64,000 nucleotides of DNA, taken from assembly GCA_902563305.1 (NCBI GenBank), contig CACEWP010000004.1, positions 43,150 through 107,149 of the forward strand, written 5' to 3'. Source of the stretch: an uncultured Alphaproteobacteria bacterium. GTDB taxonomy: Bacteria; Pseudomonadota; Alphaproteobacteria; Methylaequorales; Methylaequoraceae. Positions 6,895 to 46,319 of the stretch are shown one piece after another. A model generated the notes under the pieces. The model saw only the letters and a list, made by a program, of their open reading frames with translations, was not told the origin of the DNA and made no database searches. The position numbers were made by a program, and so were the translations under genes. Numbering within the stretch: position 1 is the stretch's first letter; every line of letters starts with the position of its first letter.

Positions 6895-7512
6895 TTATTT
6901 AAATTTTCTTATTAAACCAACTAAAAGACCTTGAATCTTAACCCTACCTTCACCAAAAATTCTTGTTTTATAATTTTTGTTTGCAGGTTCAAGGGCGATA
7001 GAGTTTTTAAAAGACCTGAATTTTTTTAAAGTTACCTCATTTCCATCTATGAGTGCAACAACAATATCACCTGTATGAGCTTGTTGAGCTTTTTTTATTA
7101 CTACAATATCTCCATCAAATATACCTTCATCAATCATAGATTCACCGTTAACTTCTAACGTGAAATGTTCATCTCTGTTATTTATTAAGTAGTTTGGAAC
7201 TGATATTTGCTCAAAACTTCCCGTAATTGCTTCAATGGGGTTTCCAGCAGCAATTCTCCCTAAGAAAGGAATATCCGTTTCTAAAGTATTCGTTGAGCTT
7301 TTATTTGTGGTCAGCAATTCTAGTGCTCTTGCTTTATGAGGGGTTTTTTTTATAAATCCTTTCTCTTCCAGACTGGAAAGTAATTTATATATCCCCGATT
7401 TTGACTTGATGCTTAGGTTATTTTTCATCTCATCAAAAGTAGGAAAAAGCATCTCTTTTTCATAATAATTTTTTATATAATCTAAAAGTTGTTTCTGTTT
7501 TATTGTTAACAT
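6895..7512 (-). CDS. lexA: LexA SOS repressor
   Basis: N-terminal wHTH, AAGNP cleavage region, GESM catalytic Ser and VTLKKF Lys; LexA box upstream. Confidence 0.96.
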   Translation of the reverse strand: MLTIKQKQLLDYIKNYYEKEMLFPTFDEMKNNLSIKSKSGIYKLLSSLEEKGFIKKTPHKARALELLTTNKSSTNTLETDIPFLGRIAAGNPIEAITGSFEQISVPNYLINNRDEHFTLEVNGESMIDEGIFDGDIVVIKKAQQAHTGDIVVALIDGNEVTLKKFRSFKNSIALEPANKNYKTRIFGEGRVKIQGLLVGLIRKFK

Positions 7513-7519
7513 ATTAAAT

Positions 7520-7534
7520 GTTCTACATAAGTTC
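7520..7534 (-). promoter_or_regulatory. LexA (SOS) box, autoregulatory site of lexA
   Basis: GTTC-TACATAA-GTTC on the + strand (GAAC-N7-GAAC relative to lexA), 8 nt upstream of the lexA ATG. It overlaps a predicted -10 (TAGAAC, 7525-7520), 17 nt from a consensus -35 TTGACA (7548-7543, - strand). Confidence 0.88.
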
Positions 7535-42761: not shown

Positions 42762-44328
42762 ATTCTCAAACTTACTAAATGATCTATTACTTACCTCTTC
42801 AAAAAAAAAAAAGATCAAGCTTCTTTGCAAGTTTTTTAATAATTCCAATCTGAAGGATAAAGGTTGGGCATTTTGCATTTTGACAGATAGATTTGAAAAA
42901 AAAATTATTAGTTCAAAGGATTTAAAAGATCTTATTTATGAAAAAATTAATGAGGAATTATTTCAGTATTCGTATGATTATGTTGGCGACTTAGCTGAAA
43001 CTATTTCATTATTATGGAGAAGTGAAGTTGAAGAAAATATAAGTATAGAATTGTATAAACTTATGGAGTTTTTAGTTAGTAATAAATCTAAAGAAGTTTT
43101 AAAAGAAAAATTAAAATATGTACTTAATAATTCAAACGAGAATCAAAGATATTGTATTTTAAAGATTCTTACAGGAGGATTGAGAGTTGGAGTTTCGGTT
43201 GGATTGATAAAAGATTCACTTGCATTGTATGGAAATAGGAAAATAGAGGAAATTGAAGAATTTTGGCATGGATTTAAATTACCATATACCGATTTTTTTG
43301 AGTGGTTAGATGGAAAAAGTCTTCCTCAATATATTAATAAAAAAAGCATGTTTAAATCATTTATGCTTGCAAATAGTTTTAATCTAGATGATTTTAAAAA
43401 TCTTAGCATATCTGATTATTTTGCTGAATTTAAATGGGATGGAATCCGAGCTCAAATAATATTTTCTAAAGAAGGAAAAATTTATTCAAGAAATGGTGAG
43501 GATATAACAGAGTCTTTTCCTGATATTAATATATATCATGATAAATATTTTGTAATTGATGGAGAATTGGTTGTAAAGAAAAATGATCAAATACTCTCTT
43601 TTAATGACCTTCAAAAAAGGATTGGTAGAAAAAAACCAACAAAAAAGTTATTAAACGATTTTCCAATCTCTTTTATCGCATACGATATTCTTTTCTATAA
43701 CGGCATTGATTGCAGAAAACTAAAATTAATTAAAAGAAGGGAATATTTAAAGAAATTTGTTCAATCACATAAAAATAAAAGAATTTCTTTATCTTCATTA
43801 GTTAAATTTACAAGCTGGAATAATTTAAAGGATATAAAAGAGAACTCAATCAATAATCATATTGAAGGTGTGGTTATAAAAAAAAAAGATAGTTTTTATA
43901 AAAAAGGCAGAATTATTAACTGTTGGTACAAATGGAAAAGAAACCCTTTTTCTATTGATTTTGTCATTATGTATGCACAAAGAGGTCATGGTAAAAGATC
44001 TTCGTTTTATTCAGATTTTACTTTTGGCTGCTGGGTTGACGATAAGTTTAAAGATCTTGTTCCGGTTGGTAAAGCCTACTCTGGTTATACTAATGATGAA
44101 TTAATAAAGTTAGATCGTTGGGTTAGACACAATACTTTACAAAGGTATGGTCCCGTAAGATCTGTTAATCCAGGACTAGTTGTTGAGATTTCATTTGATA
44201 ATATTAATTATTCTTCTAGGCACAAATCTGGCATTGCACTTAGATTCCCAAGATTTTCTAGGATACGTTGGGATAAGCCTGTATCTGAGGCTAGTTTATT
44301 AAAAGATGTAAAAGATTTAATTAATTAA
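42736..44328 (+). CDS. ATP-dependent DNA ligase (cisplatin-ligase-associated family)
   Basis: EFKWDGIRAQ (KxDG nucleotidyl-Lys motif), IDGELVV, EGVVIKKKDSFYKKGR. Confidence 0.95.
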   Translation: MDLKTKMNEFSNLLNDLLLTSSKKKKIKLLCKFFNNSNLKDKGWAFCILTDRFEKKIISSKDLKDLIYEKINEELFQYSYDYVGDLAETISLLWRSEVEENISIELYKLMEFLVSNKSKEVLKEKLKYVLNNSNENQRYCILKILTGGLRVGVSVGLIKDSLALYGNRKIEEIEEFWHGFKLPYTDFFEWLDGKSLPQYINKKSMFKSFMLANSFNLDDFKNLSISDYFAEFKWDGIRAQIIFSKEGKIYSRNGEDITESFPDINIYHDKYFVIDGELVVKKNDQILSFNDLQKRIGRKKPTKKLLNDFPISFIAYDILFYNGIDCRKLKLIKRREYLKKFVQSHKNKRISLSSLVKFTSWNNLKDIKENSINNHIEGVVIKKKDSFYKKGRIINCWYKWKRNPFSIDFVIMYAQRGHGKRSSFYSDFTFGCWVDDKFKDLVPVGKAYSGYTNDELIKLDRWVRHNTLQRYGPVRSVNPGLVVEISFDNINYSSRHKSGIALRFPRFSRIRWDKPVSEASLLKDVKDLIN

Positions 44329-44329
44329 C

Positions 44330-44357
44330 TTGAAAGTTCTACTTTTGTTCTTATAAT
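44330..44357 (+). promoter_or_regulatory. umuDC promoter with LexA box (GTTC-N7-GTTC, 44336-44350) filling the spacer
   Basis: TTGAAA (44330-44335), 16-nt spacer containing GTTCTACTTTTGTTC, then TATAAT (44352-44357). Confidence 0.9.
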
Positions 44358-44362
44358 AAAAT

Positions 44363-44767
44363 ATGAGGAATAATTTAGTGGTTAATAAAATAAAGTTAAT
44401 TAATGCAGCTGCAGGATTTCCTTCACCTGCAGAAAACTATATTGAAGAAAAATTAGACCTAAATAAATATTTAATAAAAAATAAAGAGTCATCTTTTTTT
44501 GTAAGGGTATCAGGAGACTCTATGATTAATGTTGGTATATTTGATAATGATATATTGATCGTAGACAGATCATTAACTCCAACAAAACAGTCAATAGTTT
44601 TAGTTTCAATAGATGGAGAATTAGTTATAAAAAGGCTAGTAAAAGATCGATCAAGTAATTACTATTTGAAATCTGAAAATAATAACTATCCCAACATACA
44701 ACTAAACTCGAATACAGATACCATTATATGGGGAGTAGTTACCTATGTAATTCATAATTTGAGATAA
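44363..44767 (+). CDS. umuD: UmuD-like SOS mutagenesis protease subunit (start may be GTG 44378)
   Basis: AAGFPSP cleavage site, SGDSM catalytic Ser, DGELVIKRL Lys; umuC downstream. Confidence 0.94.
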   Translation: MRNNLVVNKIKLINAAAGFPSPAENYIEEKLDLNKYLIKNKESSFFVRVSGDSMINVGIFDNDILIVDRSLTPTKQSIVLVSIDGELVIKRLVKDRSSNYYLKSENNNYPNIQLNSNTDTIIWGVVTYVIHNLR

Positions 44768-44771
44768 AATT

Positions 44772-46091
44772 ATGCTCGCCTTGTTAGACTGTAATAATTT
44801 TTATGTATCTTGTGAGAGATTATTTAATCCAAAATTAATAGGTAGACCTGTTGTTGTTCTTTCAAATAACGATGGTTGTATTATTTCTAGATCCAATGAA
44901 GCAAAAAGTATTGGAATAAAAATGGGTGAACCATTTTTTAAAATTAAAAATAATATATTAAGTAATAGAGTTGTAGTTTTATCGTCAAATTATTCTATTT
45001 ATGGAGATATTTCAGATAGAATAATGAACATCTTAAAAAATGATTTTCCTGAAGTTGAGGTTTATTCAATAGATGAGGCATTTTTTAAATTGAAGGGAAT
45101 AAAAGATAGAGAGCGGAGATGCGTTGATGTAGCTAATAAAATATTAAAATGGATAGGTATTCCTGTTAGTATAGGAATAGCTAAAACAAAAACGTTAGCA
45201 AAAATTACTAATAGAGTCATAAAAAAAAAACATGAGTATAGAAATATAACTTTTAATAATAATGTCTTAGAAATAAAAAACGATAATGATCTAGAATATA
45301 TTCTAAAAAATACACCAGTTGAAGATATTTGGGGGGTTGGAAAAAAATTATCTGTTTTCCTAAAAAAAAATACCATTAACAGTGCTTTTGATTTAAAAGA
45401 TTGTGATGAGAATTTTATCAGAAAAAAAAAGGGAGTTATATTACAAAGAACAGTTCTTGAATTAAGAGGTGTTGAATGCAACTATATTGAAAGTACTAGA
45501 CCTGTTAAAAAGTCAATTTGTGTTTCAAGGTCTTTTGGTACCAAACTACGTTATCATGAAAATATAAGAAGTGCACTGATTGTTTATGTTCAAAAGGCTA
45601 CATCTAAGATGAGATTAAATCAGCTATTTTGTAGGACGATAACTGTTTTTCTAAAAACTTCTAGATATGAAAGTCGTGCTTATTCAAACAGTAAAACATA
45701 CACTTTAATAGAACCAACAATTGATTTAAGGTTAATTTGGAAAATTGCTGATAAATTACTAAAAGATATTTATAAAGATTTATATTTATACAGTAAAGTT
45801 GGCATCATACTATCTGAATTTTATGATGAAAAATCTATACAACAATCATTGATAAATAATAAACTTAGCCAAAAAGAAACGAATAATGAAAAAAAACTTA
45901 TGCAACTAATAGATGATATTAATGGGAAATTTGGGTATGGAAAATTAAAGCTCTCATCTGACTGTGATAAAGATTTTTTTTCAAATAAAAAAACCAGAAA
46001 TAGTAGAAATTCCAATTGGAAGATGAAATCCAAATATTGTTCACCTTGCTATACTACAAGATGGTATGATATACCAAAAGTTAAGGTTTGA
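44772..46091 (+). CDS. umuC: Y-family DNA polymerase V catalytic subunit UmuC
   Basis: LLDCNNFYVSCERLFNP, YSIDEAFF, SIGIAKTKTLAKITN. Confidence 0.96.
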   Translation: MLALLDCNNFYVSCERLFNPKLIGRPVVVLSNNDGCIISRSNEAKSIGIKMGEPFFKIKNNILSNRVVVLSSNYSIYGDISDRIMNILKNDFPEVEVYSIDEAFFKLKGIKDRERRCVDVANKILKWIGIPVSIGIAKTKTLAKITNRVIKKKHEYRNITFNNNVLEIKNDNDLEYILKNTPVEDIWGVGKKLSVFLKKNTINSAFDLKDCDENFIRKKKGVILQRTVLELRGVECNYIESTRPVKKSICVSRSFGTKLRYHENIRSALIVYVQKATSKMRLNQLFCRTITVFLKTSRYESRAYSNSKTYTLIEPTIDLRLIWKIADKLLKDIYKDLYLYSKVGIILSEFYDEKSIQQSLINNKLSQKETNNEKKLMQLIDDINGKFGYGKLKLSSDCDKDFFSNKKTRNSRNSNWKMKSKYCSPCYTTRWYDIPKVKV

Positions 46092-46094
46092 GTA

Positions 46095-46319
46095 ATGGAT
46101 CAAAAAGATCAGAAAAAATTAGCATCGGCGATAGTTTTAAAAGCAAGAGAAGAGTGCAGAAAAAGAAAAATTGACCCTTATATTGCAGTTGGTGCATTTA
46201 TAGATGAAACAATAAGAGAGCTTTCAAAAGTAAATTCAGACGAAAAAGTAGCAGAATTTTTGATCAGTATCGCTGGAAAAGTGAAATTAGGAATGTACAA
46301 GAAGAAAAAATCAAACTGA
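46095..46319 (+). CDS. Uncharacterised 74-aa protein, probably cotranscribed with umuDC
   Basis: ATG 3 nt after the umuC stop; charged, helical composition; no family recognised. Confidence 0.75.
   Translation: MDQKDQKKLASAIVLKAREECRKRKIDPYIAVGAFIDETIRELSKVNSDEKVAEFLISIAGKVKLGMYKKKKSN

Follow-up and report, generated by a model that had tools for sequence, protein, structure and literature searches.

The window, the whole 64-kb stretch of DNA that was analyzed, contains a umuD-umuC gene pair on its forward strand, located downstream of genes with profile matches to a ligase-associated exonuclease and an ATP-dependent ligase, and contains lexA on the reverse strand. The features considered below are as follows:

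44330-44335, forward strand: -35 hexamer TTGAAA, read directly
44336-44350, forward strand: LexA box GTTCTACTTTTGTTC, of the alphaproteobacterial form GTTC-N7-GTTC, read directly
44352-44357, forward strand: -10 hexamer TATAAT after a 16-nt spacer, from direct reading, pattern counts, a promoter scan and family comparison
44363-44767, forward strand: umuD, 134 aa from the ATG or 129 aa from the GTG
44363-44365, forward strand: ATG, possible leaderless start
44365-44370, forward strand: GAGGAA, candidate Shine-Dalgarno (SD) sequence
44378-44380, forward strand: GTG, alternative in-frame umuD start, favored
44772-46091, forward strand: umuC, Y-family polymerase
46095-46319, forward strand: 74-aa ORF, probably the operon's third gene
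7520-7534, reverse strand: LexA box of lexA
6895-7512, reverse strand: lexA

UmuD matched NF007621 with 157 bits (cut-off 110) and PF00717 above its cut-off, which places it both in the family profile and in the S24 fold. Its alignment with E. coli UmuD' (1umu; E 1.9e-23) began at G18, the Ala-Gly falling at the N-terminus of E. coli UmuD', and both GDSM and the Lys of VIKRL aligned with 1umu, so that the cleavage site and the Ser-Lys dyad are present. Cleavage is expected between A17 and G18 (ATG numbering), and self-cleavage there would take off the N-terminus whichever start is used. UmuC contained the Pfam domains IMS (PF00817), IMS_C (PF11799) and DUF4113 (PF13438), all above cut-off, and its best NCBIfam match was PRK03609 UmuC, with 380 bits, under the 431 cut-off of that profile. 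By these matches, umuD and umuC are genuine genes.

The 74-aa ORF begins 3 nt past the umuC stop, and matched no Pfam or NCBIfam family. It was present in umuDC-bearing genomes across the family, with the exception of G020, whose contig ends inside umuC, and was found in none of ten genomes without umuD in which it was sought. This co-occurrence makes it a probable operon member and a candidate Pol V accessory. The distribution of umuDC and the ORF was patchy (G005, G006 and G007 are examples), with umuD in 18 and lexA in 26 of the 32 family genomes, and some of these absences may result from incomplete assemblies.

The 16-nt spacer of the umuD promoter consists of the 15-nt LexA box and a single T, so that GTTC-N7-GTTC overlaps a sigma-70 promoter. 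Five bases separate the end of TATAAT from the ATG at 44363, and the box lies 12 nt from this start. The pattern TTGAAA-N16-TATAAT occurs once in the 64 kb, both strands counted, as does TTGNNN followed directly by GTTC-N7-GTTC, and a promoter scan of the surrounding 2.6 kb placed the umuD promoter as the best of 14 sites, with 11/12 matches. When the exact pattern was searched for in viral contigs, none matched. The first-pass annotation had located the two hexamers, the box, the ATG, GAGGAA and the GTG correctly to the base; its term "annotated" for the ATG does not apply, since the window has no annotation.

The family set comprised 32 genomes, 18 with umuD. GTTC-N7-GTTC was found directly upstream of umuD in all 18, and TTGAAA-16-TATAAT was unaltered in 14; the other four (genera g4, g9 and g2) carry weaker hexamers, and the contig of one genome, G027, is too short to include the -35. 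Scanning genome contigs for further members of the genus returned the same single-cell genomes and none that were new, and the UmuD tree, which has weak support within the genus, was used only loosely.

GTTCN7GTTC is the LexA motif of Caulobacter (PMC12700426). The number of boxes was ruled out as evidence on its own, because the genome contains 23 exact copies of GTTC-N7-GTTC and 28 of the reversed control, and nearly all of the 23 lie inside genes, as chance predicts. The significance of the umuD box comes from its position and conservation, the box by itself being without enrichment. Only three boxes lie just before genes that plausibly belong to the SOS regulon, at distances of 7 nt (lexA), 12 nt (umuD) and 4 nt (recA); of two other boxes, one precedes an unrelated ORF by 20 nt, beside a tRNA-like end, and one precedes by 40-49 nt ORFs that come from inside a gene. 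The lexA product matched TIGR00498 with 178 bits, and the window thus encodes the cognate LexA with its own upstream box. The lexA and recA boxes were conserved in relatives with readable upstream regions, so the operator is retained at orthologs of all three genes.

The proposal that umuDC is expressed from a LexA-repressed promoter whose operator fills the spacer is supported by this family-wide conservation. With the box in 18/18 genomes and the exact promoter in 14/18, the reading is as good as sequence allows, and we predict a LexA-controlled switch of an already known type for these genes of error-prone DNA repair, for which LexA binding and damage induction are predictions. The sequence and its conservation establish the promoter, the operator and the operon umuD-umuC-orf74, whose third gene is probable; under one sigma-70 promoter, with the 16-bp spacer as the LexA operator, it would be an SOS operon. 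Since operator and spacer coincide, bound LexA and RNA polymerase would be mutually exclusive, and DNA damage would free the promoter through RecA-stimulated self-cleavage of LexA. Transcription would then begin within or beside the ATG at 44363; from sigma-70 geometry, the start site is expected between A44363 and G44365, which would leave a leader of 0 to about 15 nt. In this genus, translation would start at GTG 44378, with GAGGAA at the extreme 5' end of the mRNA, and in sister genera the same promoter would drive a leaderless ATG.

The choice between these start codons was examined by surveying every in-frame ATG, GTG and TTG from the -10 to the cleavage site in the family umuD genes; the classes by genome cover all but G013. 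GTG 44378 lies seven bases past the end of GAGGAA, in the same frame as ATG 44363. Seven of the eight genus genomes, counting the window, have the ATG at 5 nt and the GTG, with GAGGA before it, at 20 nt past the -10. The GAGGA-preceded GTG is present in 8/8 congeners, and absent from the sister genera. In the eighth genome, G008, taken as sequenced, the ATG has lost the umuD frame and runs into a stop (ATGAGGAAAAATTAG), and GAGGAA and the in-frame GTG are retained, the GTG being the sole start. The first-pass annotation had named conservation of the MRNNL residues as a check against the GTG, and the outcome is split, since MR(N/K)NL is kept in 7/8 genus genomes but G008 favors the GTG. The ATG after the -10 in G008 (L080/L035) opens a four-codon ORF whose TAG precedes the umuD GTG by a single base, and an ATG-CTG-TGA overlaps the GTG of G019; both short frames are possible tiny upstream ORFs.

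Between the window and its congeners, 1/18 sites differed from the ATG through the GTG and 11/33 in the following codons (Fisher p 0.037, a value drawn from few independent lineages, with five genus sequences identical in the stretch); the core gene differed at 62-63/330. This pattern suggests that the stretch between the two codons is a leader under constraint at the RNA or DNA level, not at the level of codons. Exact TATAAT sites before well-spaced genes lie mostly 11-27 nt from the start, a range that includes the GTG, at 20 nt, and excludes the ATG, at 5 nt.

The genome was represented by 400 kb of stretches, and the figures for start codons and SD use come from 434 genes, taken as longest ORFs, 349 of which start with ATG and 19 with GTG. 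SD cores peak 6-8 nt before the ATG, but at a spacing of 5-10 nt one is present for only 35 of the 349 ATG starts; by chance, 7 of 85 in-frame alternative starts located no more than ten codons from an ATG have one. A sample from the window (4/55) had indicated no SD use at all, a view overturned by the true 6-8 nt peak in the 434 genes. For GTG 44378, the core GAGG lies 9 nt and AGGA 8 nt upstream, and the 16S tail in this genome has an intact anti-SD, CACCTCCTT. The earlier argument from GAGGAA thus has its sequence in place, but is weaker than supposed (∼10% of ATG starts, against 8% by chance); weak SD use together with the chance rate gives GAGGAA only a modest factor, and SD pairing was rejected as decisive for the GTG. 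Rare AGG was also rejected as a sign of selection for an SD, because AGG makes up 17% of Arg codons and is too common. On balance, we consider translation of umuD in this genus somewhat likelier to start at GTG 44378 than not. Against this prediction stand the preponderance of ATG starts, the weak use of SD sequences, the ATG-only umuD genes of sister genera, and one genome (G018, of g7) in which the ATG at 5 nt is in frame, with a TTG with GAGGA and no GTG.

The first-pass annotation had posed the question as either a GTG start or a leaderless mRNA, a dilemma that was well framed, with neither alternative proved. In the leaderless case, a transcript beginning at A44363 would present a 5'-terminal AUG to a 70S ribosome, UmuD would carry a 17-residue arm, and GAGGAA would be merely codons 2-3. 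An argument for it comes from relatives, since six genomes of four sister genera have a sole ATG, with no SD and no other ATG, GTG or TTG before the cleavage site, located 6 nt (G021 of g10, G025 and G029 of g7, and G027 of g9) or 7 nt (G015 of g4 and G020 of g9) past the -10. The sigma-70 +1 is normally seven bases past the -10, so these ATGs would coincide with the transcription start or follow it by one base, and their umuD mRNAs would be leaderless; because all six must start there, leaderless would be the commoner state of the family. Two further genomes without an SD have only a GTG at 9 nt (G019) or only an ATG at 11 nt (G023). The family lexA promoters, with TTGAC(A/T), a box-embedded TAGAAC and an ATG 6-8 nt further on, point the same way. 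We found no paper on a leaderless umuD in a limited literature search; precedent for such starts comes from Caulobacter, where 375 leaderless mRNAs are translated equally well (PMC4117421), and from M. tuberculosis LexA, which is translated from the codon at its transcription start (PMC2897130). However, ATG 44363, like its counterparts in this genus, is one base nearer the -10 and starts one base before the position usual for sigma-70, the frame is lost in G008, the ATG-GTG stretch resembles a leader more than codons, and no genome-wide peak of -10 sites was found 4-7 nt before starts. In this genus the ATG appears to have slipped one base to a less favorable position, and a GTG with a leader is available; a leaderless umuD here is therefore possible but doubtful.

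Use of both starts, with heterogeneous transcription from A44363 or G44365 yielding two UmuD forms that are five residues apart and both self-cleaved, is improbable. Each of these positions is a purine after a T, the two codons are in frame together in 7/8 genus genomes, and the choice of transcription start can give alternative products in Caulobacter (PMC4117421), but two forms would bring no evident benefit, as the arm is cleaved off. Expression of umuD mainly by read-through from the exonuclease-ligase genes, which would make the leader question moot, is very unlikely. On the same strand, 34 nt separate the end of the ligase gene from umuD, and the ligase-umuD order is kept in most relatives; against read-through, the near-ideal promoter is conserved even in genomes whose retrieved stretch showed no ligase next to umuD (G015, G023, G020 and others), and a weak terminator-like site with a 5-bp stem lies at 44276-44292 within the ligase gene. 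A GTG start at 44378 behind a very short leader remains our preferred reading.

Across the family (L109-L130; 7512-7545 on the reverse strand in the window), lexA has TTGAC(A/T) ∼17 nt before the TAGAAC that lies inside its LexA box, and with the ATG placed so near, lexA may be leaderless too. In recA (L136, among loci L135-L160), the box lies 4-9 nt before the ATG and apparently just downstream of the -10, where bound LexA would cover the transcription start.

In E. coli umuDC, the operator also lies within the promoter. Both loci have the order umuD-umuC and an S24 self-cleaving UmuD with a GFPSPA cleavage region. In contrast to E. coli, the operator here is GTTC-N7-GTTC rather than a palindrome, the N-terminal arm is 12-17 residues rather than 24, the 74-aa third gene is extra, and the leader is almost absent. 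The Caulobacter crescentus LexA regulon has the same operator consensus (PMC12700426), but here only three boxed promoters (lexA, recA and umuD) were recognized with the exact motif. M. tuberculosis lexA is likewise an SOS gene translated from the codon at its transcription start, a start shown by tagging and frameshift mutants (PMC2897130), whereas here it is inferred from the distance between promoter and start codon.

These results describe, for a streamlined and uncultured lineage of marine alphaproteobacteria, a clear SOS operator-promoter unit, and correct a umuD start that is likely misannotated. The promoter itself is ordinary; the single feature worth testing is that umuD and lexA would have almost no leader throughout the family, a predicted arrangement for which precedent exists. 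A tentative extension, which we regard as less probable than its alternatives, is that lexA and umuD are systematically leaderless or near-leaderless in the family because the operator abuts the start codon, which would tie damage-induced repair to 70S-type initiation, and that in this genus an SD-led GTG is coming to replace a leaderless ATG as the umuD start. If this geometry is true, the orthologs would form a natural series of promoters that differ in where the start codon lies with respect to the transcription start, and would be useful for learning how leaderless and leadered initiation replace one another.
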